Below, in pieces: positions 5,413-37,985 of a stretch of DNA of 37,985 nucleotides; the stretch's first letter is position 1; each line of letters opens with the position of its first letter. The stretch spans positions 1 through 37,985 of the forward strand of contig MFHO01000019.1 in the NCBI GenBank assembly GCA_001778635.1, read 5' to 3'. The position numbers were made by a program, and so were the translations under genes. Under the pieces are notes generated by a model. The model was not told the origin of the DNA and searched no databases. It saw only the letters and a list, made by a program, of their open reading frames with translations. This DNA is from Candidatus Giovannonibacteria bacterium RIFCSPHIGHO2_02_FULL_45_13 (GTDB taxonomy: Bacteria > Patescibacteriota > Minisyncoccia > UBA11713 > 2-01-FULL-45-33).

Positions 5413-5892
5413 CTAAACCAAATCTAGGGGCTTGACCACGACTCTGCGATCCGGGCCTTCGCCGGTGGACTGTGTGGAAATATCGGGATACTCCTGCAAA
5501 ACAGAGTGCACAATTCTGCGATCGTAAGCGTTCATAGGGCGCATCTCAACTTCTTTTTTAAAATATCGCACCCTCTGGGCATGCATTCGCGCCATGTCTT
5601 TTATCTCCTCTATCCTTTTTTTATTGTAATCATTGACGTCAATTAAAAATCGGAATTTGCTCCCGGGGAATTTTTGTTCGTATATGCGTTTGATTAAATA
5701 AGTAAACGAGAAAAGATGTTTGCCTCCATCCCCGATCAAAAGCGGCGCCTCTGTGCCGGGCGTTTTTATAATAAACCAATTATCTTCTCCGCCTTCTTGA
5801 AATTCTAACGAACACAAAAATCCCATTCGAGCCAAAAGGTCTTTTATGGTATTTTCGGCAAACTCAATTTGTTGCTTTGTTTCGCTATCCAT
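5413..5892 (-). CDS. jag: Jag/KhpB-like KH-R3H RNA-binding protein
   Basis: KH region LIGDGGKHLFSFTYLIKRIYEQKF, C-term R3H MNAYDRRIVHSVLQEYPDISTQSTGEGPDRRVVVKP; adjacent to yidC, as in canonical rpmH-rnpA-yidC-jag order. Confidence 0.9.
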   Translation of the reverse strand: MDSETKQQIEFAENTIKDLLARMGFLCSLEFQEGGEDNWFIIKTPGTEAPLLIGDGGKHLFSFTYLIKRIYEQKFPGSKFRFLIDVNDYNKKRIEEIKDMARMHAQRVRYFKKEVEMRPMNAYDRRIVHSVLQEYPDISTQSTGEGPDRRVVVKPLDLV

Positions 5893-6595
5893 TTTGAAGC
5901 GCTCGTCTGCGGACGACCGCTTCGTGCACTATAGCAAAAACATTCATTGCTGTCCAATACAAAGAAACCGCCGCCGGCAGTTTAAACGCTATAAAAAAAA
6001 CCAGAATTGGGAAAAAATAAACCATCTGAAACTGCATCGCCCGTTGCATATCTTTTTTCGCTTCGGCGCCGCCGCCGGAAACGACCGCTAGTTTCGCCTG
6101 CAAGAATTGGGAAGCGGCGGCCAAAACGGCCAGCAGTACGCTGGCCTCGGTTAAAGAAATAAATCCTAAAAACATTGTATTAACCGGCACGGAAATATCC
6201 AAAAACGCATAAACTTCGCCCGCCTTAAACGGAATGCCCTGCCAAAAAACCTGGTACAGCGCGATCAAGAGCGGCAACTGAACAATTAACATAACAAATC
6301 CAGCGAGCGGATTGATGCCGTGAACGCGATAAAGTTCCATGAGCGCTTTGGTTTGTTCTTCTTTGGTCTTTTTCTCCGCGTAGATTTTTTTTACGTCCGG
6401 TTCTATTCTTTTCATTGCGTTTTGAGTTTTTAGCATGTTGTGAGTCATAGGAAACGTCAGCACCCTTATAAACACGGTCAGTAAAATCACCGCCAAACCC
6501 AGATCGTGCCCCGGCAAAATCGAAGTCAAAAAAACCAAAGCCCCCAAAAGCGGGCGGTAAAATATTTCATTAAAAACTAATTTTAGATAGAACAT
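5885..6595 (-). CDS. yidC: Membrane protein insertase YidC/Oxa1 family
   Basis: 236 aa; LAVILLTVFIRVLTFPMTHNMLKTQNAMKRIEPDVKKI and multiple TM segments; syntenic position. Confidence 0.93.
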   Translation of the reverse strand: MFYLKLVFNEIFYRPLLGALVFLTSILPGHDLGLAVILLTVFIRVLTFPMTHNMLKTQNAMKRIEPDVKKIYAEKKTKEEQTKALMELYRVHGINPLAGFVMLIVQLPLLIALYQVFWQGIPFKAGEVYAFLDISVPVNTMFLGFISLTEASVLLAVLAAASQFLQAKLAVVSGGGAEAKKDMQRAMQFQMVYFFPILVFFIAFKLPAAVSLYWTAMNVFAIVHEAVVRRRALQNG

Positions 6596-6908
6596 TTTTT
6601 ATGTCTTCTTTGATTTCGGCGAATGGCGGGACCGCGCGGTCAGCCAATTTCATAAAAAAAACAACGTCCCGTCCCGGCTTGGCGGCGCCGAACACGCTTC
6701 GCGCCGCTTCCGCCATGCGCCTTTTTGCTAAATTCCGCAGATGCGCCGCCCTGGTTTTAGGCCCGGAAACAACAAAAGCAAACCTGTTAAATGCCAAATT
6801 ATTCCGCCTTGCGCGCGCAGTAAGCAGCGCACCTTTAAAATAACCGGATTTCAGCTTAAAAAACCGCTCAAGACCCTTGCGTCCGATTCTAAAAGATTTT
6901 TTAAGCAT
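6570..6908 (-). CDS. rnpA: Ribonuclease P protein component
   Basis: 112 aa; FAFVVSGPKTRAAHLRNLAKRRMAEAARS (R-N-x-x-K-R-R signature); between rpmH and yidC. Confidence 0.9.
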   Translation of the reverse strand: MLKKSFRIGRKGLERFFKLKSGYFKGALLTARARRNNLAFNRFAFVVSGPKTRAAHLRNLAKRRMAEAARSVFGAAKPGRDVVFFMKLADRAVPPFAEIKEDIKNVLSKISF

Positions 6909-6914
6909 ACCACA

Positions 6915-7049
6915 TCAAACAACCAGCCGCTCCCTCCCTTTCTGGCGCCTTCTGGAAAGCACATTGCGGCCCGTTTTGGAGCGCATTCTCTTTAAAAAGC
7001 CATGTGTGCGCGCCCGTTTTCTTTTTTTGGGTTGATAAGTTACAGACAT
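6915..7049 (-). CDS. rpmH: 50S ribosomal protein L34 (absent from the supplied ORF track because it is short)
   Basis: Hand translation on the minus strand: [44 protein letters not shown], 44 aa, classic L34; immediately upstream of rnpA. Confidence 0.97.
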
Positions 7050-7159
7050 CGCCTTTTTATTTTACAACAATTTGGCTTTTAAGCAATATTCACAGGCACT
7101 CCACAATCTATTAACATTTTTTACAATGCAATGTTTATCATTAGGTTTATAGTAAAACT

Positions 7160-8539
7160 ATGACAAATGAAGAATTGTGGAATGTGGCGCTTGGGGAAAT
7201 AGAGCTAGCCGTGTCGCGAGCAAATTTCGTCACATGGTTTAAGGATACAAAAATCATAGATCAATCCAACGGAATAATAACCGTAGGCGTGCCTAACGGA
7301 TTTTCGAAAGAATGGCTGGAGAACAAATTCCACAAATTTATTCTGAAATCTTTAAGATCAAACGCGCCGGAAATACGCGCCGCAAACTATTCAATCGTTG
7401 CCCCCTCTGCAAACAATGTTAAACCAACTAAGCCAAAATTCAAAAAAGAGCCCATTTTTAACGATGCGGAACAATTGGAATTCAGAGAATTCTACATTGA
7501 TCCCAAAACCAACCTTCATCCTAAATATACCTTAGATTCTTTCATAGTAGGGTCTTTCAACGAGCTTGCTCACGCGGCGGCCATAGCCGTTATTAAAAAT
7601 CCCGGGCGAGCTTACAATCCTTTATTTGTCTACGGAGGCGTCGGGCTTGGAAAAACACACCTTTTGCAGGCAATCGGCAACTCAATACTTAAAGAAGGCC
7701 CCAATAAAAAAGTTTATTACCTCACTTCCGAAAAATTTACGAACGAACTTTTGAATTCCCTGCAAAATCAAACTATTCAAAGTTTCAAAGAAAAATTTAG
7801 AGATTATGATTTGCTTATTGTTGATGATGTGCAATTTTTCGCCAATAAAACAAAAACGCAAGAGGAGTTTTTCCACACATTTAATACGCTTTTTGAATCG
7901 GGCAGGCAGCTTGTTTTTTCTTCCGATAGATCTCCCAAATCCATTCCAAGCATAGGCGAAATAAACGACCGCCTGATTTCCCGCATGGAAGCCGGAGTTC
8001 TTGTAGATATTTCGGAGCCTGAATACGAAGCCAGGCTTGCTATATTAAAAGCAAAATCGGCGGAAAAGAAAATAGATTTGCCAGAATCAACGTTAGAATT
8101 GATCGCTTTAATGGTCCAAAAAAGCATAAGGGAACTGGAAGGCGCACTCAATACGGTAAACATTCAATCAAAATATCAAAACGAGGTGCTTACTAAAGAA
8201 GAAGTTAGGGCGATATTAAGCAAAAATTTAAAACCCAGAAATACCATAACTCCAAGCCAAATCATAAAAACCGTGGCTGAATTTTATGATATACCAGAAA
8301 AATCTATTTACGAACACACAAGAAAAACGGAGGTTGTGCGCCCGCGCCAAATAGCAATGTTTCTGCTCAGAGAAGACCTAAAAGGATCATATCCTTATAT
8401 AGGACAAAAATTTGGCGGCATGGATCACACAACCGCGATTCATGCTTACGAAAAAATCCATGAAGAAACAAAAAAGAACACCAGATTAGAAGAAGAAATA
8501 AAGGGTATTAGAGGTAAATATCAAAACCAACAAAGATAA
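7160..8539 (+). CDS. dnaA: Chromosomal replication initiator DnaA
   Basis: 459 aa; Walker A GGVGLGKTHLLQAIG, DLLIVDDVQFF, C-term GQKFGGMDHTTAIHAYEKI DnaA box-binding signature. Confidence 0.98.
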   Translation: MTNEELWNVALGEIELAVSRANFVTWFKDTKIIDQSNGIITVGVPNGFSKEWLENKFHKFILKSLRSNAPEIRAANYSIVAPSANNVKPTKPKFKKEPIFNDAEQLEFREFYIDPKTNLHPKYTLDSFIVGSFNELAHAAAIAVIKNPGRAYNPLFVYGGVGLGKTHLLQAIGNSILKEGPNKKVYYLTSEKFTNELLNSLQNQTIQSFKEKFRDYDLLIVDDVQFFANKTKTQEEFFHTFNTLFESGRQLVFSSDRSPKSIPSIGEINDRLISRMEAGVLVDISEPEYEARLAILKAKSAEKKIDLPESTLELIALMVQKSIRELEGALNTVNIQSKYQNEVLTKEEVRAILSKNLKPRNTITPSQIIKTVAEFYDIPEKSIYEHTRKTEVVRPRQIAMFLLREDLKGSYPYIGQKFGGMDHTTAIHAYEKIHEETKKNTRLEEEIKGIRGKYQNQQR

Positions 8540-8641
8540 ATTGTTATTAAAAAAATACATTATTTGTATCAATAACATATCCACAGTTTAAATTATCAAA
8601 AATAAATCTAATCCACAAATTAACATAGCTAATAATAATAT
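8540..8641. promoter_or_regulatory. Candidate oriC segment (dnaA-dnaN intergenic) with near-consensus DnaA boxes
   Basis: AT-rich spacer with ATATCCACA (8577-8585) and TAATCCACA (8609-8617), each one mismatch from TTATCCACA; GTTATT...AATAAC inverted repeat; AATAATAAT tail. The rpmH-dnaA spacer also has ATATTCACA near 7086. Confidence 0.55.
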
Positions 8642-9745
8642 ATGAAATTACAGTGTACAAATAATAATATTAAAGATGCGGTTGTGACAGCAGAAAGAAA
8701 CACATCAAAAAACCAAACATTACCTGTATTAAATTCTTTATTAATAGATGCAGAAAAAGATAAAATAAAAATCAGGGCAACAAATCTTGAAACAGCAATA
8801 GAAATAATTGTTCCTGGTAAAATTTTTGAGTCCGGAAGCATAGTTGTGCCTGCAAAAATTTTAAGCTCGTTTTTAGCAAACGCTGGCTTTGAACAAATTA
8901 CATTTCAAACCAATAAAAACAATCTTTTGATCAAAACAGATACTGTGGAAACCATAATTCGTGGTTATCCTTTGGAAGATTTTCCTATATTCCCGCATAT
9001 AAGCGCTCAGGAAAAATTTACCGTTCCGGCTCCTGAATTAAAATACGGAATATCTTCGGTTATTATAGCCGCGAGTCATTCGGATATAAAACCTGAACTA
9101 AGCAGTGTGTTTTTCAATGTTTTTAAAAACACAATTAAAATCGCCGCCACAGATTCATTTAGATTAGCAGAAAAAACCATTATTTCTAAAAATATACAAC
9201 AAGAACGATCTCTATCGTTCTTAATACCACAAAAAGGAGCGCAAGAAATTCTCAAACTGCTCGGTGAGGACGAGGATATAGAGCTCGGAATAAATAAAAA
9301 TCAGATAATTTTAAAACACAGAAACTTAATATTTATATCAAGGCTGACTGATGGTAAATTCCCAGATTATGAACAAATTTTACCGAAAAGTTTCAAAACA
9401 ACGGCAATAGTAAAAAAATCCGACATTTCTTCGCATATGAAATTAGCCGGAGTATTTGTTGGCAAGTTAAACGATATTGGTGTTAATTTCGATCCTGCCA
9501 AAAAATCAATTATTATAAACACTTCCAATTCAGACGTAGGAGAACACGTATCTCAAATAAGCTCTATGATTCAAGGCGATAAAATTTCTGCGAAATTCAA
9601 TGAAAGATATTTATCTGAAGGAATTGCGCAAATTAACAGCGAATATATCGAATTTAATTTAAATACTTCGGAGTCGCCTCTGCTCATCAAGGGCAAAGGA
9701 GATAATTCGTATTTGTATCTTTTAATGCCGATGCGGGGAGTTTAA
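8642..9745 (+). CDS. dnaN: DNA polymerase III beta clamp
   Basis: 367 aa, downstream of dnaA; TLPVLNSLLIDAEKDKIKIRATNLETAIEI... C-term SPLLIKGKGDNSYLYLLMPMRGV. Confidence 0.95.
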   Translation: MKLQCTNNNIKDAVVTAERNTSKNQTLPVLNSLLIDAEKDKIKIRATNLETAIEIIVPGKIFESGSIVVPAKILSSFLANAGFEQITFQTNKNNLLIKTDTVETIIRGYPLEDFPIFPHISAQEKFTVPAPELKYGISSVIIAASHSDIKPELSSVFFNVFKNTIKIAATDSFRLAEKTIISKNIQQERSLSFLIPQKGAQEILKLLGEDEDIELGINKNQIILKHRNLIFISRLTDGKFPDYEQILPKSFKTTAIVKKSDISSHMKLAGVFVGKLNDIGVNFDPAKKSIIINTSNSDVGEHVSQISSMIQGDKISAKFNERYLSEGIAQINSEYIEFNLNTSESPLLIKGKGDNSYLYLLMPMRGV

Positions 9746-13591: not shown

Positions 13592-14053
13592 TCAAAAGAA
13601 GGCGGTTAATGCCAAGGCTAAGGCGTCTGTTTCGTCATCTAAAAGCTTGTTTTTAGGCAAATTAAGCTGAATTTTTATCATATTGGCAACGCTTTCTTTG
13701 CCTGCCCGCCCATATCCACAGACGGCCATTTTGACTGCCAGCGGCGTGAATTCTTTGATTGGGAGTTCGTGCTTTTCTGCGGCGGCCAAAATGATGCCGC
13801 GGACCTCTCCTATGATAAGGGCCGTTTTGACGTTCTTGGCGAAGAATAGTTTTTCTGTAGATAATATGTCCGGCTTTGTTTTTTTGATTAAATCATCTAA
13901 AAACTCAAAAATTTCCCAAAGTCTCTCGCTCTCTCTTTGATTTTTCGAGGTTTGTTTGACTCCGGAGACAATTCTGGCAAACTTGCTGCCGGATTTTTCC
14001 ACCAATCCCCATCCCAACCTCTCAATCCCCGGATCAATGCCTAGGATTTTCAT
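13592..14053 (-). CDS. ruvC: Holliday junction resolvase RuvC
   Basis: MKILGIDPGIERLGWGLVE; STEKLFFAKNVKTALIIGEVRGIIL; DDETDALALALT. Confidence 0.95.
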   Translation of the reverse strand: MKILGIDPGIERLGWGLVEKSGSKFARIVSGVKQTSKNQRESERLWEIFEFLDDLIKKTKPDILSTEKLFFAKNVKTALIIGEVRGIILAAAEKHELPIKEFTPLAVKMAVCGYGRAGKESVANMIKIQLNLPKNKLLDDETDALALALTAFF

Positions 14054-14068
14054 ATATATTAATTAATG

Positions 14069-15634
14069 CTAAATAATTTTTGGCAATAAATCTACGCCGG
14101 TCATGTCGGGCGATTTTTTTATTCCCATGAGAGCCAAAATAGTCGGCGCTATATCAGTCAGCACTCCTTTTGTTTCGGTATAGCGCAAAAAAATTTCTGA
14201 TTCGGAGCGCGGCGTTTCGTTTTTTAAATCTTGTGTAATTATAAAAAATGGCACGGGATTGGCTGTATGTTTTGTGCGCCGTTCGCCTGAAGCTGAATAG
14301 ATTTTTTCTTCCGCGTTGCCGTGATCGGCCGTCACGATTAACGCCCCGCCAGCCTCCAAGGTCTTATTTACCAGCTTCCCGATTGCCAAATCCAAAGCCT
14401 CTATTGCTTTTACTGTAGCGTCAAAATTTCCGGTATGCCCAACCATGTCGCCATTCGCGAAATTCACCAAAACGAAATCATATTTAAAAACATTTTCTAA
14501 AATCGTATCTGTAATTTTGGCGGCTGACATTTCCGGCGTTTCGTCAAAACGCGCCGATTTGGGAGAAGGGATTAAAATTCTTTCTTCCCCCTGATACGAC
14601 GCCTCGCGGCCGCCGTTAAAAAAATATGTCACGTGCGCGTATTTTTCGGTTTCGGCGACGTGAAGCTGTTTTAAGCCAGCGTCCGATATAAGTTTTGCTA
14701 AAGGCTGCGAAACATCAAGCGGAGAGAAAGCAACCGCTGCCGGAAATCTCTTGTCGTACTCCGTCATTGTTACAAAGAACAAGTCGCCGATTTTGTCGCG
14801 GGCAAATCCTGCAAAACTGTCGGATATAAACGCCGAAGTCAGCTCGCGCACAGAGTCTTCTCTGAAGTTATAGAAAACCACCGCATCTCCGGATTCGATT
14901 TTGCTTTCAGCGGAGCGCGCAGGCTCAACATATTCGTCGCTTACTCCTTTTGTGTAAGCAGACTCAACATAATCGGCCGCATTTTTAAAAATTGGACATG
15001 TGCCGGCGGTTAAACATCTATAAATTTTTTCAACACGATCCCAATTTTCATCTCTGTCCATTGCGAAATGTCTGCCGGACAAAGTAGCTATTTTCGCAAA
15101 TGGGTAGCGGATAGTTAGCCTTTCTTCAAGTTGGCGCAAAAACAGCGCAGCTTCTTTGGTCGGCGCGTCTTTGCCGTCTGTAAAAAGATGGAGATAGACG
15201 CGCTCCAGTTTTTGCTGATCGCAAAAATCAAGCAAGGCGTATAAATGATCAATATATGAGTGGACGGAGCCGGAAGAAAAAAGGCCCATAAGATGTATTT
15301 TCCCTTTACTGTTTTTTACAAAATTAGCTGCGTCTAAAAAAGCCTGGTTTCGAAAAAATGAACCGTTATGGATCGAAGTAATAATGCGCGGCAGATGATG
15401 ATAAAGAAGCTTCCCAGCGCCGATTGTCAGGTGCCCGACTTCCGAATTTCCTTCTTCTCCCCAGGGCAGTCCGACGGAAATTCCTGAAGCCTGCAGAGTC
15501 GTGAAAGGATAAAATTTTTCCAACTCCCGAAAAGTCGGCATCTGGGCGTGCTTCCATGTGGACTCCGGATTTGAAATATTCACCCCAAATCCGTCCAGCA
15601 CCGCCAAAATTACAGGTTTATATTTTTTGGCCAT
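14069..15634 (-). CDS. gpmI: 2,3-bisphosphoglycerate-independent phosphoglycerate mutase
   Basis: VILAVLDGFGV, GNSEVGH, DGKDAPTKEA, GRHFAMDRDENWDRV, NFANGDMVGHTG, TADHGNAEEK. Confidence 0.96.
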   Translation of the reverse strand: MAKKYKPVILAVLDGFGVNISNPESTWKHAQMPTFRELEKFYPFTTLQASGISVGLPWGEEGNSEVGHLTIGAGKLLYHHLPRIITSIHNGSFFRNQAFLDAANFVKNSKGKIHLMGLFSSGSVHSYIDHLYALLDFCDQQKLERVYLHLFTDGKDAPTKEAALFLRQLEERLTIRYPFAKIATLSGRHFAMDRDENWDRVEKIYRCLTAGTCPIFKNAADYVESAYTKGVSDEYVEPARSAESKIESGDAVVFYNFREDSVRELTSAFISDSFAGFARDKIGDLFFVTMTEYDKRFPAAVAFSPLDVSQPLAKLISDAGLKQLHVAETEKYAHVTYFFNGGREASYQGEERILIPSPKSARFDETPEMSAAKITDTILENVFKYDFVLVNFANGDMVGHTGNFDATVKAIEALDLAIGKLVNKTLEAGGALIVTADHGNAEEKIYSASGERRTKHTANPVPFFIITQDLKNETPRSESEIFLRYTETKGVLTDIAPTILALMGIKKSPDMTGVDLLPKII

Positions 15635-18862: not shown

Positions 18863-19072
18863 ATGACCACAGCAACAATACAAAAAGAATTAGAGCGCGC
18901 CTCGAGATTAATGGGCGTGGGCAAAAAAAAACTCGTAGATCGAGCACTTTTGCTTTATCTAGATAGCATAAGGCAACAGTTGGGCTTGTTTAGAGAATTT
19001 GAGGCTTGGGACAGGCTTAGTGATGAAGCATTGCTGAAGTTCGAGAGCAATCTGCAACATGAAAAAAGGTGA
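18863..19072 (+). CDS. Putative antitoxin partner of MazF-like toxin
   Basis: 69 aa, overlaps the start of the MazF-like ORF by 14 nt; helical MGVGKKKLVDRALLLYLDSIRQQLGLFREFEAWDRLSDEALLKFE, typical antitoxin layout. Confidence 0.75.
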   Translation: MTTATIQKELERASRLMGVGKKKLVDRALLLYLDSIRQQLGLFREFEAWDRLSDEALLKFESNLQHEKR

Positions 19073-19385
19073 AATCTGGATTGCGCAACTGCCAACTCTA
19101 AGCGGACACGAACAAGAGGGTGTTCGTCCGGTGATAATACTTTCAGATGTAATCGCCTCGCTCACGCTAATCATTCCGTGCACTTCCAACATTCAAGCGC
19201 TGCGGTTTCCGCATACTTTAGAAATTGGTCCGTCTAAAAAGAACGGACTTAAGGCTTTTTCTGTTGCCATGATTTTTCAAATAAGAGCCGTGGACAAAAA
19301 CCGCCTAAAACATAAAGTGGGCGTATTAGAGTCAGCATTCATACGCGAAATCAATAAAATGCTAAAAGAAATGCTTTCGTTGTAA
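19059..19385 (+). CDS. MazF/PemK-family endoribonuclease toxin
   Basis: MKKGEIWIAQLPTLSGHEQEGVRPVIILSD... LTLIIPCTSN... IRAVDKNRL... RPVxIL and S/T-x-N features of MazF/PemK. Confidence 0.85.
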   Translation: MKKGEIWIAQLPTLSGHEQEGVRPVIILSDVIASLTLIIPCTSNIQALRFPHTLEIGPSKKNGLKAFSVAMIFQIRAVDKNRLKHKVGVLESAFIREINKMLKEMLSL

Positions 19386-25423: not shown

Positions 25424-26350
25424 CTAATTTTTACGCTCTAAGATCTTATAACCTTCCAAAATTGCGTCGCAGAGAAAATCTTCAAGCAAACTTGTGTCGT
25501 TCTGCGTTTGCGCTTTATGTAGGTAAGTAGTATACAATCGGCGTTTTTCCTGAAGTATTACAACAGGCGCAAGGTTCGCCCTGATTGCCATCGCGTGCAT
25601 CAAAAGCCTGCCGATACGGCCGTTTCCGTCGGCAAAAGGGTGAATTTTTTCAAACTCACCGTGCGTGGCAGCAATGCGCTTAATCTCATCCGGAATTTTT
25701 CTGCCTAATTTATCCGCAAAATTCTCCATCAAATTAGGAATTTTTAAATAATTTGCCGTCGGGACATTGGATCCCGTTATCCTTACTCCATGATTGCGGT
25801 AACTTCCTGCATCCGGACGAATCGCATTCATTAAAATTGCGTGCAACTTTAAAATAAGCGCTTCATTTAAAAACTTTTTTTCGGATAAATATTGGAATAA
25901 ATATTCCAGCGCCGCTTGATGGTTTTTGGCTTCCAATTGCTCAATCAAGCTCTTATTTGGCAAAGCCGCGTTTTCGAATAAAATTGCGGCAGTTTCGTTT
26001 TCAGAAAGAGTACTGCCCTCAATGCGGTTGGTATTGTACGTCAAAGACAGATAAAACCGATCGCGAATATCCGGATTGTCAAGGATTTCACTCAGAACAT
26101 TTTTATGGCCTTGGCGTTTTTGAAGCACCATGCCCTTTTTTGCGCCAAGAACCGACTCTGGCACGTGTTTCTCACCGGAATATTCTTTGTATAATTCATC
26201 AATTTTTTCTTGAGCTTTTTTTCTGGGTACCGCCTTGCCATTAATCCAGCGATTAAGAGCGGCGAAAGTAACGCCTAAACGACGGGCCAATTCTTCTTGA
26301 GTAAGCCCGGAAAGCTTTAGCAGTATTTGTAATTTCTCCTTTATGGTCAC
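25424..26350 (-). CDS. Fic-family protein with N-terminal XRE HTH
   Basis: HTH LTQEELARRLGVTFAALNRWINGKAVP; Fic motif HPFADGNGRIGR; inhibitory-type motif TNRIEG. Confidence 0.93.
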   Translation of the reverse strand: MTIKEKLQILLKLSGLTQEELARRLGVTFAALNRWINGKAVPRKKAQEKIDELYKEYSGEKHVPESVLGAKKGMVLQKRQGHKNVLSEILDNPDIRDRFYLSLTYNTNRIEGSTLSENETAAILFENAALPNKSLIEQLEAKNHQAALEYLFQYLSEKKFLNEALILKLHAILMNAIRPDAGSYRNHGVRITGSNVPTANYLKIPNLMENFADKLGRKIPDEIKRIAATHGEFEKIHPFADGNGRIGRLLMHAMAIRANLAPVVILQEKRRLYTTYLHKAQTQNDTSLLEDFLCDAILEGYKILERKN

Positions 26351-26356
26351 AATGCT

Positions 26357-26408
26357 ATATTAGCAAACTATATATAGTTTGTCAAAAATAAGGAAACATA
26401 TATAGTTT
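26357..26408 (-). promoter_or_regulatory. Promoter of XRE-Fic gene with palindromic operators
   Basis: Minus strand TTGACA (26380-26385) / TAATAT (26357-26362), 17-nt spacer occupied by palindrome AAACTATATATAGTTT (26365-26380); second copy AAACATATATAGTTT at 26394-26408. Confidence 0.75.
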
Positions 26409-26418
26409 TTAGCAGAAA

Positions 26419-27030
26419 TCAAATGCGTTTTAGTATGCGTTTTTTGAAATCGGCGTATTGTTTTTTATTTAAACCGAGCTCTTCTGTTTCTGCCGCAGAG
26501 TTTAACAATTCTTTTAGCTCCAGCAATAAGTTCCCAAAACTAAATTTTTCTAAGATATCGCGCAAATTATTAAAATCCACGCCATCAAAATATAACAAGC
26601 TGATTATATCAATTTTGTCTTTTTGTCCTTTTAAATTGCTTTTTCTTTGGCTGTAAGTATATATTTTTAAACAAAGCAAAATTTCTTTGGTGGGCACCTT
26701 AAATCCTTCGATTGAGACCGAATTTTGTAAAATATAATCTAGCGACAATCCAAGTTGGGACCAAAAAGCAACATAAATATCAACGTCGAATCCCTCCATT
26801 TTAATTTCGTATTTTTGAAGCCGTTCGTTTTTTACCACGTCAAAATCTTTTTTTAGACGCCCCAAGGTTTCTGCGCCGACAACAATATCTATGTCTTTGG
26901 ATTTAAGCTGTTTTGTGTACAAAAAAACCGCCCATCCGCCAATCAGAACGAAATCGTATTTTTTTCTTAGTTCTTGCAAAACGCGGAAGCTCTTCTCCGT
27001 TATAAATTCGTGCCAAAATGCATCGGCCAT
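26419..27030 (-). CDS. Nucleotidyltransferase, AbiEii-like putative toxin
   Basis: FVLIGGWAVFLYTKQLKSKDIDIVVG (GG...DxD nucleotidyltransferase signature); immediately downstream of winged-helix partner. Confidence 0.75.
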   Translation of the reverse strand: MADAFWHEFITEKSFRVLQELRKKYDFVLIGGWAVFLYTKQLKSKDIDIVVGAETLGRLKKDFDVVKNERLQKYEIKMEGFDVDIYVAFWSQLGLSLDYILQNSVSIEGFKVPTKEILLCLKIYTYSQRKSNLKGQKDKIDIISLLYFDGVDFNNLRDILEKFSFGNLLLELKELLNSAAETEELGLNKKQYADFKKRILKRI

Positions 27031-27034
27031 ATAT

Positions 27035-27625
27035 TTATTTTATTTCTTCTTCCATAGCCTTTAAAAAATCTTTTGCGTACCATTCCGGCGCGTTCCAAAT
27101 ATCAACAAAAATTTGTTCGTATAGCGGTGCCGGATATTTTAATAGCCATGGATCCTGTTTTATCACAAAAAAATTGTGGCGTGGCAGATTATCTTTGTGT
27201 TCTGAAATTCTTTTAAGTAATTTTTCCAAATCTTTTTCATCGGCATAAACATATAAGTGGTCATATTCTGCCGGAGTACTGCCATAAAAAATTGAAAATC
27301 CACTAAAAGCGCCGAATATTGTTCCAGGAGGCATTATCCCTTCCAACGTTTTTATGTCGCTGTTAAAATGTGCGGAATAAATAATTTCTTTTTTAATATT
27401 GCGTTCTGATGCCCAGAGATAAAGCAGTTTGCGATAATTTTCCAAAGCAAAAAAACGCCCTCCCACTTTTATGATATTGGCGGATCTTAATGGTTTTAGC
27501 GCGTTAAAAATTGTGCTTAGCGAAAAACCGAACTTTAGAGCAAGCTCTTTTTGGGTAAATTTTATTTTTTTGTTTTGTCTGGCTTGGAATAGAATTTCCC
27601 GCCAGATCACCTCCTTTTTAAGCAT
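27035..27625 (-). CDS. Winged-helix AbiEi-like putative antitoxin/regulator
   Basis: N-term wHTH FTQKELALKFGFSLSTIFNALKPLRSANIIKVGGRFFA; C-term LYVYADEKDLEKLL...APLYEQIFVDIWN resembles AbiEi C-terminal region; 4-nt gap to the nucleotidyltransferase. Confidence 0.65.
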   Translation of the reverse strand: MLKKEVIWREILFQARQNKKIKFTQKELALKFGFSLSTIFNALKPLRSANIIKVGGRFFALENYRKLLYLWASERNIKKEIIYSAHFNSDIKTLEGIMPPGTIFGAFSGFSIFYGSTPAEYDHLYVYADEKDLEKLLKRISEHKDNLPRHNFFVIKQDPWLLKYPAPLYEQIFVDIWNAPEWYAKDFLKAMEEEIK

Positions 27626-34130: not shown

Positions 34131-34166
34131 ATCCTAGCAAAAAACCGCCTTTTAAGTCAAGGCGGT
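34131..34166 (-). promoter_or_regulatory. Hybrid terminator/promoter between acyl-CoA dehydrogenase and the 33665 gene
   Basis: ACCGCCTT-gactta-AAGGCGGT-TTTTT hairpin (34144-34166); TTGACT in hairpin (34155-34160), 18-nt spacer, TAGGAT (34131-34136). Confidence 0.65.
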
Positions 34167-35723
34167 ATGTTTGATGATGCGCTTTTTAGCTTCGTCCCAA
34201 AGATTGCCGTTTCGTACAATGGTGCTATCCAAATCTTTTTTGATTTGCTCGTGAATCAGCGCAGTAAGCAAGGACGGCTCTTTAAACCACATAAATTCTT
34301 TCGGCCAGCTCTCATTAAATTCTCTTAAAATCAATTCTTTCGTGGCCCACAACGGCAAGATGTCTGCGACGCGGAACGGTTCGCGCTGATCTTCCAAGGC
34401 CAGCGCGCTTTTTTCTCCGAGTTCTCGCGCGACTTTTTCTTTTAGATCAGACATTTGTCTTTCGTAAAGCGGTGGGACATAAAAAGAAATTTTTCCGTCC
34501 ACCCAAGCGCGCGCGATGTTGCTTCTCTGAACATTGGACGCACCTTCGTAAATATCTAACGGCAAAGAGTCAAGAACAAAGCGCGCGATTTCCATATCAG
34601 CAAGATAGCCAGAGCCGCCGTAAATTCTTTGCGCTTCCTGCGTCAGCCATCTCGCGTTTTCAGATGAAAACAGCTTTGCAAGTGAAGCGTAATGAGCAAA
34701 TTCCGCGCCTTGGTCTTCCAGCCAAGCGGAATAAAAAAGTAAAATTCTGGAAATGTCGGCAGCAAGGACCATTTTCACGATTGGGTCGCCAATTCCCGAA
34801 TGAACAATGGTTGGCACGCCGAAAGCGATGCGATTTTGCGCGTGCTTTAAAGAAAGTAAGGTGACTGCATCCAAGATTCCAATTCCCTGCGCCGCGATCC
34901 AATTGCGTCCGTGGTTTAGTGTTGCCATAGCGCCCTTGCCAAAACCATTACCAAGTTCGCCCAAAAGGCAGCTTTCCGGCACAAAAAGATTGTTGAACAC
35001 GATTGAACCCATGTGAGCGGCATGAAGCCCTAATTTCTGTTCAGGTTTTCCGATTTTAAGCGCCCCGCTTTTTTTATCTTCACGCCTCACAGGAATCAAA
35101 AAAGCTGAAACGCCGCGATGGTCTTTAATTGTGCGATCGGTTCTTGCAAAAACAATTAAAAATTTCGCGACAGGAGCGTTCGTGATAAAACACTTTTCGC
35201 CGGAGATTGAAAAACCTCCGCTAACCGGCTCGGCATAAGTTTCTATGCGCGCAGCGTCTGACCCGTGATTCGGCTCTGTAAGGCAGAACGATCCCAAAAT
35301 TTTTCCGGCGACAAGTTCTGGCAGCCATTTTCTTTTTTGCTCTTCGCTCCCAAGCCTGAACAGGGGATCGCTAACCAATGAATTGCCGACTCCCAGAATC
35401 AATGCTCCTCCCGACCAGACTTTGCACATTTCTATCATGGCAATAACGCCCGAGAGATTGTCCATTCCTGCGCCGCCGTATTCTTCCGGAATATTTATGC
35501 CGCAAAGCCCCAGCTCTGCCATTTCTCTCACAAGCGGCCACGCGAAAGGCGCGTTGTGCCGCTCGTACTTTTGGATCATTCCCGGCTTATCTTGTTTATC
35601 TTTCGGATCTGCTTTATGCGTGATGTCCGCCGCATTCATTCTCTCGCGCACCATATTCCTTACCATCAAATGCTCTTCGGCTAATTTCATTGTCGATGTC
35701 ATTTCTGGTGAAATACGTAGCAC
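34152..35723 (-). CDS. Acyl-CoA dehydrogenase family protein
   Basis: CLTEPNHGSDAARIETYAEPVSGGFSISGEKCFITNAPVAKFLIVFART; YGGSGYLADMEIARFVLDSLPLDIYEGASNVQRSNIARA. Confidence 0.93.
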   Translation of the reverse strand: MLRISPEMTSTMKLAEEHLMVRNMVRERMNAADITHKADPKDKQDKPGMIQKYERHNAPFAWPLVREMAELGLCGINIPEEYGGAGMDNLSGVIAMIEMCKVWSGGALILGVGNSLVSDPLFRLGSEEQKRKWLPELVAGKILGSFCLTEPNHGSDAARIETYAEPVSGGFSISGEKCFITNAPVAKFLIVFARTDRTIKDHRGVSAFLIPVRREDKKSGALKIGKPEQKLGLHAAHMGSIVFNNLFVPESCLLGELGNGFGKGAMATLNHGRNWIAAQGIGILDAVTLLSLKHAQNRIAFGVPTIVHSGIGDPIVKMVLAADISRILLFYSAWLEDQGAEFAHYASLAKLFSSENARWLTQEAQRIYGGSGYLADMEIARFVLDSLPLDIYEGASNVQRSNIARAWVDGKISFYVPPLYERQMSDLKEKVARELGEKSALALEDQREPFRVADILPLWATKELILREFNESWPKEFMWFKEPSLLTALIHEQIKKDLDSTIVRNGNLWDEAKKRIIKHTALT

Positions 35724-35752
35724 AAATTAAAAATCGCCGCAAGGGCGACTTT

Positions 35753-36886
35753 TTATTTAATTTTACTTAATTTTTCATCCAAAAATTCGCAAAGAGCATC
35801 TATGCCTTCTCCGGTTATTGCCGATACTGGGAAATACGGTTTTTGAAAACGCTCTTTAAGCGCGAGTTCGGCGCGGAAAGCTGGCTCTTTATCAATTTTG
35901 TTGAGCAAAATTGCGTCTGCGAGTTCGTGCGCCCCGCCTTTCATAAGCCGTAAGTCATCGGTTTCATTCGGCAGCGCGACCCACAAGAAAAGATCCGCCA
36001 GATTTTTTATTGCCGAAGACGTTTCTTGCCCAAGCCCGATTGTTTCAAAAAATATCAGTTTTGCTCCCCACAATTTCGCCAAACCAGCCAAATTTTTAAG
36101 AAATGTCACGCGCTTTTTGCTGTAGTTTCCGAACTGCGAAACACTGCGGATAAAAATATTTTCGTTTGAAGTATGATCCTGCACGACGAGCCTATCACCC
36201 AAAAATGCACCCTTCAGTTTCGGCCCGCGCGGATCGCACAAAAAAACAGCGATTTTTATCCCGCGTTTCCCAACGCGTTCCAAAACGGCGTTTAGCAAAC
36301 TGCTTTTGCCGGCGCCAGTTGGGCCGCCGAGTACCACCGTTATCGCGTTGCTTTCCACGGGAGTGCTTAAAATCAGAGAGCCGCGTTCTTGGCTGGTGAT
36401 TGCCGCGGCCAAAATCTCGCGCGGTATGCCATGCCCCACAGCAAACTCATTTTGCTGATTCTTTTCTTTTTCCCGGCATTCTCGCAAAATGTACTTCGCG
36501 ATTTCGTCATGGGTGGTTGCGGAAAGAAACACTTTAAATCCCATAGCGCTTAATTTTTCTCTCACGTCGGGAAATGTTATTTCTCCGCTGCCTCCAGCAA
36601 TAAGAATTTTATTTTCCAATCCGGAAGATTCAAGCAGTTTTTTCAAATGTCCCAAAAGCACAACCGGATCGCCAGTGTGCACGGAAACCCCTATCGCGTC
36701 AGGATCTTCCTCAATGGCGGTTTTTATGATCTGTGTCCACGATTGTTGCAGCCCAGGCCAGATAGAGTCAATATTGCGCTTTCTCAAAAACACTATCAGG
36801 TCGTGAATTGGCCTGTCGTGGCCGTCCAATGGGGGTTTTATCAAAAGTATCTTCGGCGATTTCATCTCAACCTCCTTAATCCCCAT
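35753..36886 (-). CDS. B12-binding domain fused to MeaB/ArgK-type GTPase
   Basis: N-term KILLIKPPLDGHDRPIHDLIVFLRKRNIDSIWPGLQQ (cobalamin-binding domain); VVLGGPTGAGKSSLLNAVL; AVFLCDPRGPKLKGAFLGDRL; ILLNKIDK. Confidence 0.9.
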   Translation of the reverse strand: MGIKEVEMKSPKILLIKPPLDGHDRPIHDLIVFLRKRNIDSIWPGLQQSWTQIIKTAIEEDPDAIGVSVHTGDPVVLLGHLKKLLESSGLENKILIAGGSGEITFPDVREKLSAMGFKVFLSATTHDEIAKYILRECREKEKNQQNEFAVGHGIPREILAAAITSQERGSLILSTPVESNAITVVLGGPTGAGKSSLLNAVLERVGKRGIKIAVFLCDPRGPKLKGAFLGDRLVVQDHTSNENIFIRSVSQFGNYSKKRVTFLKNLAGLAKLWGAKLIFFETIGLGQETSSAIKNLADLFLWVALPNETDDLRLMKGGAHELADAILLNKIDKEPAFRAELALKERFQKPYFPVSAITGEGIDALCEFLDEKLSKIK

Positions 36887-37985
36887 GACCGCGCCAGCGG
36901 CCGAAAACCGGCTCCAGAGTTTTTATCATGCTTTCCTCCACCGTAGCGTAAGATTCCACCGCTTCCATAACCGGCTCCACCAAATTACCGCCTCCGCGCG
37001 CTTCGCCAGCAAGCCGCTTAAGGCATTTTTCAACCCGCGCCTCGTCGCGCTCTTTTTGTACTTTAGCCAAGCGCTCTTTTTGTTTTTGGTGCGTTTCTAA
37101 TGTAGGAACGCGGATCATTTTGCTAAAAATCTCCTTTTCTTCGCGTTCAGCCGACGCTTGATCAAAATATTTATTGACGCCGACGATAACGATTTCCGGA
37201 GGGCTTTTGTTCGTCCGCTCAGCTTCCGCCAAAGAAGTTTTTTTGATTTCAAGTTGCGGATAACCAAGCTCTATTGCGCGCAACATTCCGCCAAGCGCTT
37301 CTATTTTTTTGAAATATTCGCGCACCCCGCGCTCCATTTCGCTTGTATGCCATTCCAAATAATAACTTCCGCCAACCGCGTCCACAACGTCGGCGATGTT
37401 CATTTCTTCTCCGACAATCTGCTGTGTTCTGATGGCCTCTTTGACGGCTTCCGTGCTCGGCAACGCCATTTCCTCATCCCACGAATTCAGATGAATTGAC
37501 TGCGCTCCTCCCAAGAAAGCCGCCAGATAGTGCAACGCGCCGCGTACGACGTTATTGCGCGGCTCTTGCCGCTTGAAGCTCACGCCGGAGTTTTGGACAT
37601 GAAATTTAAGGGCAAGCGATCTTGGACTTTTAGCGCCGTATTTGTTTTTTAGAGTTTCGTACCAAATCTTCCGCGCCACGCGGAATTTGGCAATTTCTTC
37701 CCAAAATCCTTTGCAGTTGAAAAAGCAGGACATGCGCCCGGCAACGTCATCAATATTCATGCCGCGACTCAAGCAATATTCCAACAAAACGAAAGCGTTT
37801 TTAAAAGTGAAAGCAAGTTCCTGCACAGGAGACGCGCCTTGCTCCGCCATGTGGTAACCGGAAGAATTGACGGGGTAGAATCCGAAATCCATGTTTCGTA
37901 TGGCGAATTCCATCATATCTCCTTCAAGCCGCATGCCGTGCTCAAGAGGAAATCTGTATTCTTTCTGACTTATGATTTCCTTGCG
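36876..37985 (-). CDS. Methylmalonyl-CoA-mutase-type large subunit (5' truncated at window end)
   Basis: SSGYHMAEQGASPVQELAF, SCFFNCKGFWEEIAKFRVARKIW, HVQNSGVSFKRQEPRNNVVR, LGGAQSIHLNSWDEEMALPS, DAVGGSYYLE; frame stays open to base 37985. Confidence 0.9.
   Translation of the reverse strand, partial: RKEIISQKEYRFPLEHGMRLEGDMMEFAIRNMDFGFYPVNSSGYHMAEQGASPVQELAFTFKNAFVLLEYCLSRGMNIDDVAGRMSCFFNCKGFWEEIAKFRVARKIWYETLKNKYGAKSPRSLALKFHVQNSGVSFKRQEPRNNVVRGALHYLAAFLGGAQSIHLNSWDEEMALPSTEAVKEAIRTQQIVGEEMNIADVVDAVGGSYYLEWHTSEMERGVREYFKKIEALGGMLRAIELGYPQLEIKKTSLAEAERTNKSPPEIVIVGVNKYFDQASAEREEKEIFSKMIRVPTLETHQKQKERLAKVQKERDEARVEKCLKRLAGEARGGGNLVEPVMEAVESYATVEESMIKTLEPVFGRWRGHGD

Follow-up and report, generated by a model that had tools for sequence, protein, structure and literature searches.

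The locus considered here raises the question of what a cobalamin-dependent acyl-CoA mutase, a MeaB-type G-protein bearing a fused B12-binding domain, and an acyl-CoA dehydrogenase could accomplish in a reduced genome. The window, meaning the whole stretch of 37,985 nucleotides that was analysed, is one entire contig (C19) of genome G000, which measures 0.83 Mb at 96% completeness. Ribosomal protein uL30 (PF00327) was missing in 12/12 genomes searched and found in 13/14 controls; combining a small genome with uL30 loss, the host is of the CPR/Patescibacteria type, in agreement with the reduced, CPR-like genome suspected in the initial annotation. It is proposed, with moderate confidence, that the three genes represent the acyl-CoA end of an island for the degradation of short or branched-chain 2-oxoacids and fatty acids, the mutase being isobutyryl-CoA-mutase-like and loaded with its cofactor in an IcmF-like manner. 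Gene content, domain order, conserved residues, synteny, distribution and predicted fold constitute the observed or computed basis of this proposal, from which the substrate, flux direction, loading mechanism and cobalamin source of the mutase system are inferred.

A concern raised early on was that the contig could be chimeric near 34 kb; a related possibility is that the genes are a contamination from a larger-genome bacterium. The GC content over the three genes is indeed slightly raised (0.46-0.48, versus mostly 0.38-0.46 elsewhere), and the mutase system is rare, occurring in 16/384 genomes of the class and 3/380 of the phylum. However, mutase and fusion are also present in the same-genus genome G001 (80-88% identity, the higher value being that of the mutase) and in G004 (61-63%), both genes thus being carried by the same genus and by another genus of the family, while in the family genus g3 the locus is colinear and flanked by the same genes of LysM-Mpl-YraN type. 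In addition, the mutase gene is broken off by the contig end, and its first 165 aa are encoded at the end of another contig (G000:C11:2-496, minus strand), behind the genes for PrpC-PrpD-PrpB, a 2-oxoacid dehydrogenase and LipB. Taking G001 as reference, about 65 bases between C11 and C19 are unassembled, and the two contigs combined give the G001 gene order. This synteny in sister genomes and the matching mutase fragment rule out a chimeric contig, and an origin of the genes in contamination is hardly credible.

The Pfam assignments confirmed the three genes initially recognized on the minus strand. The C-terminal 369 aa of the mutase large subunit occupy positions 36876-37985 (MM_CoA_mutase, 2.3e-101), in an ORF of its own, as first described, which ends with TAA at the start of the fusion. 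The fusion (35753-36886, minus strand) carries both of its domains in one 377-aa ORF (MeaB, 1.8e-28; B12-binding, 1.1e-08), with a likely start at ATG 36865 that yields 370 aa. Since a Shine-Dalgarno sequence (AAGGAGG) lies five bases upstream of this ATG and overlaps the mutase stop region, mutase and fusion look translationally coupled. The acyl-CoA dehydrogenase, of the short-chain type, follows at 34152-35723 on the same strand (Acyl-CoA_dh_N/M/1; 2e-28, 1.7e-20 and 1.5e-29), with a likely start at ATG 35690. Between the last two genes a terminator-like hairpin (35729-35753, minus strand) was picked up by a consensus scan that returned 13 sites in the region against 7.3 expected, which makes it weak evidence for a terminator. 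In G001 an opposite-strand ORF separates fusion and dehydrogenase, and in G004 a different dehydrogenase is placed in convergent orientation. Together with the hairpin, these layouts mean that a single three-gene operon is not supported: of the operon originally claimed, mutase and fusion look coupled, and the membership of the dehydrogenase is doubtful. No cobalamin riboswitch was found in the window, in C11 or in the G001 locus.

The B12 domain of the fusion (36467-36862, minus strand; alignments A1 and A3) displays the motifs D21-G-H23-D-R-P, S68-V-H70 and G98-G99. Relative to the DxHxxG...SxL...GG pattern, the Asp, His, Ser and GG are kept, the final Gly is replaced by Pro and the Leu of SxL by His; the same Pro is seen in the B12 domain fused to the mutase in G065. 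D21, H23, S68, G98 and G99 are invariant in all fused homologues of both alignments. The G-domain (35756-36352, minus strand; A1, A3 and the PF03308 match) has the P-loop GPTGAGKSS, the switch II ETIGLGQ, NKID and a switch III-like PNETDDLRLMKGG, with the P-loop, the ExxG of switch II and NKxD invariant in alignment A1, as in GTPases of the MeaB/MMAA type. The fused homologues in which these B12- and G-protein motifs are invariant share 26-80% identity with the window protein. The C-terminal dimerisation arm of MeaB is absent, as the ORF ends at the last G-domain helix and the PF03308 match reaches only position 232 of 273. An AlphaFold model of the chain (pTM 0.84) retrieved IcmF at Foldseek ranks 1-14 without exception, with both domains covered and TMq about 0.80, despite a sequence identity of only about 23%. 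The equivalence with the N-terminal half of IcmF, noticed at the outset, is therefore borne out over the whole chain: an N-terminal B12 domain is followed by a G-domain in the IcmF arrangement, the mutase being a separate ORF instead of part of the same polypeptide.

Regarding the mutase itself, the active site is informative. In methylmalonyl-CoA mutase (MCM), Tyr89 and Arg207 contact the second carboxylate of methylmalonyl-CoA; Phe and Gln at these positions are the mark of isobutyryl-CoA mutase and occur also in IcmF. The C11 fragment has Phe at the Y89 position, and the window mutase has Gln at that of R207 and His at that of H244. Over the Y89, HCM D117, R207 and H244 columns the window clade reads F-A-Q-H, whereas 46 mutases of the MCM type read Y-A-R-H; the gene of such a Y-A-R-H mutase in Ilyobacter adjoins those for an epimerase and a carboxylase. 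A carboxyltransferase (PF01039) was not found in G000 or in other family members searched, and was present in 12/14 controls. The F and Q residues and this missing function together suggest that the mutase is more likely isobutyryl-CoA-mutase-like than an MCM, an assignment that is new here; in the literature searched, no paper paired isobutyryl-CoA mutase with Patescibacteria.

An MCM serving propionate metabolism, the annotation given to a related CPR gene in 2017, is disfavoured and appears unlikely. The NCBIfam and Pfam family names are those of MCM, the gene adjoins propionate-cycle genes, and the Parcunitrobacter gene was called MCM by Castelle et al. 2017 (PMC5220378); but, besides the changed carboxylate contacts and the absent carboxyltransferase, PrpC, PrpD and PrpB already give propionyl-CoA a B12-free route, and the tree places all CPR mutases outside the one supported clade formed by the MCM types (100/98). 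The branch leading to the window clade is long, and a placement of this clade inside the MCM clade was disfavoured without being rejected (AU p = 0.08). Somewhat less improbable, though still a minority reading, is a mutase for another acyl-CoA, either the 2-hydroxyisobutyryl-CoA/3-hydroxybutyryl-CoA or the isovaleryl-CoA/pivalyl-CoA pair. Among solved mutases the nearest is 2-hydroxyisobutyryl-CoA mutase (HCM), not isobutyryl-CoA mutase, yet the HCM-specific Ile90 and Asp117 are replaced by Phe and Ala in the window mutase. As for the second pair, IcmF also acts on pivalyl/isovaleryl-CoA (PMC9974510), C5 and C4 substrates not being separable by the sequence and structure comparison used here.

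The preferred isobutyryl-CoA-mutase-like reading has a metabolic setting. Upstream of position 37985, where the initial annotation had advised looking, C11 carries the rest of the mutase and, directly upstream of it, genes for PrpC, PrpD, PrpB, an E1, a stand-alone lipoyl domain, an E2 and LipB, in the same order as in G001; the E1 is pyruvate-dehydrogenase-like by NCBIfam, with a score under all cut-offs. The search for other acyl-CoA enzymes in the genome revealed a beta-oxidation cluster on contig C18 (acyl-CoA synthetase, acyl-CoA dehydrogenase, a 3HCDH-ECH fusion and two thiolases). Castelle et al. 2017 had described a CPR genome that encodes PrpCDB with a mutase close by, as well as beta-oxidation and acyl-CoA dehydrogenases (PMC5220378). 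Thus B12-mutase acyl-CoA chemistry in CPR is rare but already known from a similar gene set; the rarity first claimed stands, whereas its description as not expected was overstated.

The window dehydrogenase has its best PDB matches among short-chain acyl-CoA dehydrogenases, with the three expected domains and an invariant catalytic Glu (E393, in IYEGA), plus a C-terminal extension of about 115 aa common to G001, G007 and G009 among those aligned. Neither G000 nor any of 9 further members of the family examined has an electron-transfer flavoprotein (ETF; PF01012), so that the dehydrogenases are left without their usual electron acceptor; COX1/NorB were likewise not found in G000 and its family. 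A PduO-type adenosyltransferase is encoded in G001, G003, G004, G005, G007 and G008; in G000, at 96% assembly completeness, no adenosyltransferase was detected. The sole candidate for B12 uptake is a weak FecCD-like match. The absence of ETF in the family and of an adenosyltransferase in G000, as well as the Gln at the H244 position in two g3 mutases, could indicate that the genes persist in a degraded or repurposed pathway, with the dehydrogenase acting, for example, reductively without ETF. This is considered quite improbable, given that the ORFs are intact, that the catalytic residues are conserved in the window clade across genera, and that the same-genus G001 does have an adenosyltransferase.

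In the proposed pathway, the AdoCbl-dependent mutase would interconvert branched and straight C4 (or C5) acyl-CoA, a step by which beta-oxidation would be linked to what the adjacent 2-oxoacid dehydrogenase produces, and the propionyl-CoA formed would enter the adjacent methylcitrate cycle (PrpC, PrpD, PrpB). The fusion would unite in one chain the cobalamin-carrying mutase subunit and its G-protein loading chaperone. Its B12 domain is predicted to dock on the mutase barrel, a protein of its own, and AdoCbl loading would be gated, as in IcmF, by the attached G-domain through GTP binding and hydrolysis. With no MeaB dimerisation arm, a GTP-active G-protein dimer is expected only transiently, via complex oligomerisation, as reported for IcmF.

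The fusion was found in 6/384 class genomes, and in none of the best 80 outside loci (0/80), where B12 subunit and MeaB were always separate ORFs. This arrangement appears to be new and, among the genomes examined, confined to a few relatives. In comparable loci of a single family the B12 domain resides on the mutase in one genus ([mutase-B12][MeaB] in g3) and on the chaperone in two ([mutase][B12-MeaB] in g1/g4). A simple boundary shift between these states was set aside, as the mutase groups of g3 and of g1/g4 fall apart in the free tree; a single clade for the family mutases was not rejected (AU p = 0.17), and both replacement and an in-place change of gene boundary would be compatible with the trees. 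One origin of the fusion was not rejected either (AU p = 0.38). In G027 a fusion occurs with no mutase gene in the flanks examined, about 9.5 kb on its upstream side and 2.4 kb on its downstream side. In view of this, and of the different partners that the B12 domain has within the family, the fusion may tentatively be regarded as a self-loading B12 cartridge of CPR, a free-standing chain with cofactor and loading motor serving separate mutase(s).

B12 loading by MeaB/MMAA is a mechanistic and medical question that has been approached with two kinds of system, a dimeric stand-alone chaperone and IcmF, a protein of 120 kDa. A B12-domain/G-protein chain of ~370 aa, with the mutase detached and no arm, would offer a minimal intermediate for testing the need of G-protein oligomerisation. 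The F/Q signature provides a possible reason for CPR "MCM" without propionyl-CoA carboxylase and epimerase, the mutase of the family studied here being probably not an MCM. Short or branched-chain acyl-CoA degradation in a <1 Mb genome is also supported, presumably with B12 obtained from neighbours.

Among known systems, IcmF (PDB 4xc6, 5cjt, 8sta) shares with the window proteins the order of B12 domain and G-domain in one chain, the fold and domain arrangement predicted over the whole fusion, the lack of a MeaB-type arm and an F/Q-type mutase active site, and differs in that the window mutase barrel has its own gene upstream of the fusion and in the low identity given above. The MeaB/MMAA-MCM systems (PDB 2qm7, 8dpb, 8gju) have the same type of G-protein motifs and an adjoining mutase, whereas the window G-domain carries a B12 domain, lacks the C-terminal dimerisation extension and accompanies a mutase without the MCM active-site Tyr and Arg. 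HcmA/HcmB (PDB 4r3u) likewise has a separate large subunit without B12 domain, which is the closest solved sequence and has Gln at the R207 position; its B12 subunit, in contrast, is a stand-alone small protein, and its Ile90/Asp117 are missing from the window mutase. The mutase/B12 subunit/MeaB clusters of Firmicutes, Chloroflexota, Deltaproteobacteria and Archaea contain all three functional components, in most cases ordered alike, but with B12 subunit and MeaB separate in all 80 loci and many with the MCM signature. Finally, Ca. Parcunitrobacter nitroensis (PMC5220378) resembles the present case in having a B12 mutase close to PrpC, PrpD and PrpB, together with beta-oxidation and a pair of acyl-CoA dehydrogenases, with propionyl-CoA carboxylase and epimerase not found there and PF01039 absent here; it differs in possessing ETF and a respiratory chain, where G000 and its family have neither ETF nor COX1/NorB, and in a mutase called MCM, with no B12-GTPase fusion mentioned in the passages considered.

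Three genes lie on the minus strand at the end of the window, which is one entire contig (C19) of a genome (G000) of 833,541 bases in 36 contigs and 96% estimated completeness. Their domains agree with the initial annotation: a mutase large subunit that runs off the contig end (36876-37985), an N-terminal B12-binding domain fused to a MeaB-type G-domain (377-aa ORF, 35753-36886) and a 523-aa acyl-CoA dehydrogenase (34152-35723). The motif AAGGAGG, within the mutase stop region, precedes by five bases an ATG at 36865 that is probably the start codon of the fusion. The genes had been proposed to form an operon, and all three do share a strand, but a terminator-like hairpin is situated between the fusion and dehydrogenase genes, so they are not taken as a single transcript. 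Residues 407-523 of the dehydrogenase form a C-terminal extension of about 115 aa, without a family match in Pfam and common to the dehydrogenases of family members G001, G007 and G009.

The locus is conserved. Identities to the window proteins are 88% (mutase), 80% (fusion) and 78% (dehydrogenase) in G001, of the same genus, and 63% (mutase) and 61% (fusion) in G004, from another genus of the family. Searching G000 with the G001 locus located the 5' portion of the mutase gene, absent from the window, at the end of contig C11, across a gap of about 65 bases as judged against G001. The genes upstream of 37985 were thereby recovered: C11 carries PrpC, PrpD, PrpB, RsmE (named by eye), a fused E1, a stand-alone lipoyl domain (87 aa), an E2 consisting of the catalytic part only, LipB on the opposite strand and the N-terminal part of the mutase, with E2, E1, PrpB and PrpD ordered as in G001. 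In a further genus (g3; G003, G007, G009) the colinear site holds a fused mutase-B12 gene, MeaB and the dehydrogenase, and is flanked, like the window locus, by LysM-, Mpl- and YraN-type genes. An artefact such as the suspected chimerism near 34 kb is ruled out by the G001 and G004 homologues, the C11 fragment in G001 order and the colinear g3 locus.

The E2 of G000 is split into a lipoyl-domain protein and a catalytic-only E2 (C11, 2199-2462 and 1531-2202), with LipB adjoining; stand-alone lipoyl-domain (85-87 aa)/split-E2 loci also occur at L020 13697-13954 and L021 13262-13525, whereas the G004 E2 (L015 7887-9044) is of the ordinary fused type. Elsewhere, the window contains a replication-origin type neighbourhood (5885-9745; YidC-type and RnpA genes on the minus strand, DnaA and DnaN on the plus strand), a PemK/MazF-type toxin gene (19059-19385) and an HTH-Fic protein that matches the PADLOC candidate PDC-S04 and adjoins nucleotidyltransferase-like and HTH proteins (25424-27625); the latter two loci are possibly toxin-antitoxin type units.

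The likeness of the fusion to the N-terminal half of IcmF was supported by its AlphaFold model (pLDDT 79.6, pTM 0.84), in which the arrangement of B12 domain and G-domain matches IcmF over the entire chain (structural matches ranked 1-14, all IcmF, TM 0.77-0.81), against a TM of about 0.45 for MeaB alone; as IcmF was known to AlphaFold from training, this is support and not proof. All six fused homologues share, without variation, the P-loop and ExxG motifs as well as the Asp, His, Ser and GG that contact B12; the five homologues of alignment A1 also have a complete NKxD. Unlike MeaB, the fusion has no C-terminal dimerisation arm. IcmF reaches its active G-protein dimer through oligomerisation (JBC 2023, PMC10481361), and by analogy the fusion would do the same.

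The nearest solved structure to the mutase is 2-hydroxyisobutyryl-CoA mutase (HCM), followed by methylmalonyl-CoA mutase (MCM). Four alignment positions were compared, those of Propionibacterium MCM Tyr89, HCM Asp117, Arg207 and His244: 46 MCM-type proteins read Y-A-R-H and the solved HCM I-D-Q-H, while CPR mutases read F-A-Q-H (for G000, the C11 fragment supplies F and A, and the window Q and H), except for G065 (F-P-Q-H) and two g3 genes (F-A-Q-Q). In the latter (L021 9657-11687, L022 3662-5659), Gln replaces the active-site His244 (GYQPRE vs GYHxxE), and their function may be altered. The phylogeny proposed as a check resolved the MCM types as one clade (100/98) with every CPR mutase outside; forcing the window mutase group inside was weakly disfavoured (AU p 0.08). 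According to published work on IcmA/IcmF, the F/Q combination marks isobutyryl-CoA mutases. Because of this signature, the position outside the MCM clade and the failure to find a carboxyltransferase in the family genomes searched, the best reading of the predicted function is isobutyryl-CoA mutase-like, the alternative being action on a C5 acyl-CoA.

An isobutyryl-CoA mutase-like enzyme would link branched and straight acyl chains, the simplest model being degradation of amino acids via 2-oxoacids to short acyl-CoAs, with PrpCDB disposing of propionyl-CoA. The G004 mutase neighbours an amino-acid dehydrogenase, an aromatic-amino-acid-lyase-type enzyme, thiolase, acyl-CoA synthetase, E1 and E2. 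As to other acyl-CoA enzymes and corrinoid functions, G000 has a beta-oxidation-type set, as does G001 on its mutase contig (names partly by eye), but adenosyltransferase, present in 6/10 family genomes including G001, was not found in the 96% complete G000 assembly. The G000 beta-oxidation cluster (contig C18; L172) also includes an ACP-like phosphopantetheine protein (13961-14263) adjoining an AMP-ligase and a dehydrogenase. Acyl-CoA dehydrogenases are present in the family, but none of its ten genomes has ETF (PF01012), their usual electron acceptor, and none has COX1/NorB.

Across the class, 16/384 genomes gave any match and six, spanning four families, carry the single-ORF fusion (G000, G001, G004, G024, G027, G243); in a phylum sample, 3/380 genomes matched, G000 counted. 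A single origin of the fusion was neither demonstrated nor rejected (AU p 0.38). Of the matches listed from named genomes (among them Firmicutes, Chloroflexota, Deltaproteobacteria, Spirochaetes and Archaea), none of the best 80 loci has both domains in one ORF, and in plasmid relatives annotated beneath the match they are separate features. The G027 fusion (L017 9511-10656) lies beside a citrate-synthase-like ORF, with no mutase gene within the 13 kb read. A literature search covering few subscription papers returned no report of a free-standing B12-domain/G-protein fusion, nor of an isobutyryl-CoA-mutase signature in CPR.

The three-gene feature is real, conserved and rare. That such acyl-CoA chemistry would be unexpected in CPR holds as regards rarity but not novelty, since Castelle et al. 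2017 (PMC5220378) had already described PrpCDB, with a mutase close by that was named MCM, and beta-oxidation in a CPR genome, and remarked that carboxylase and epimerase were missing. G024, which carries the fusion together with ETF and a COX1/NorB-family gene, resembles that organism. The three-gene feature represents a new form of the B12 acyl-CoA mutase/chaperone system inside a CPR metabolism already partly known.
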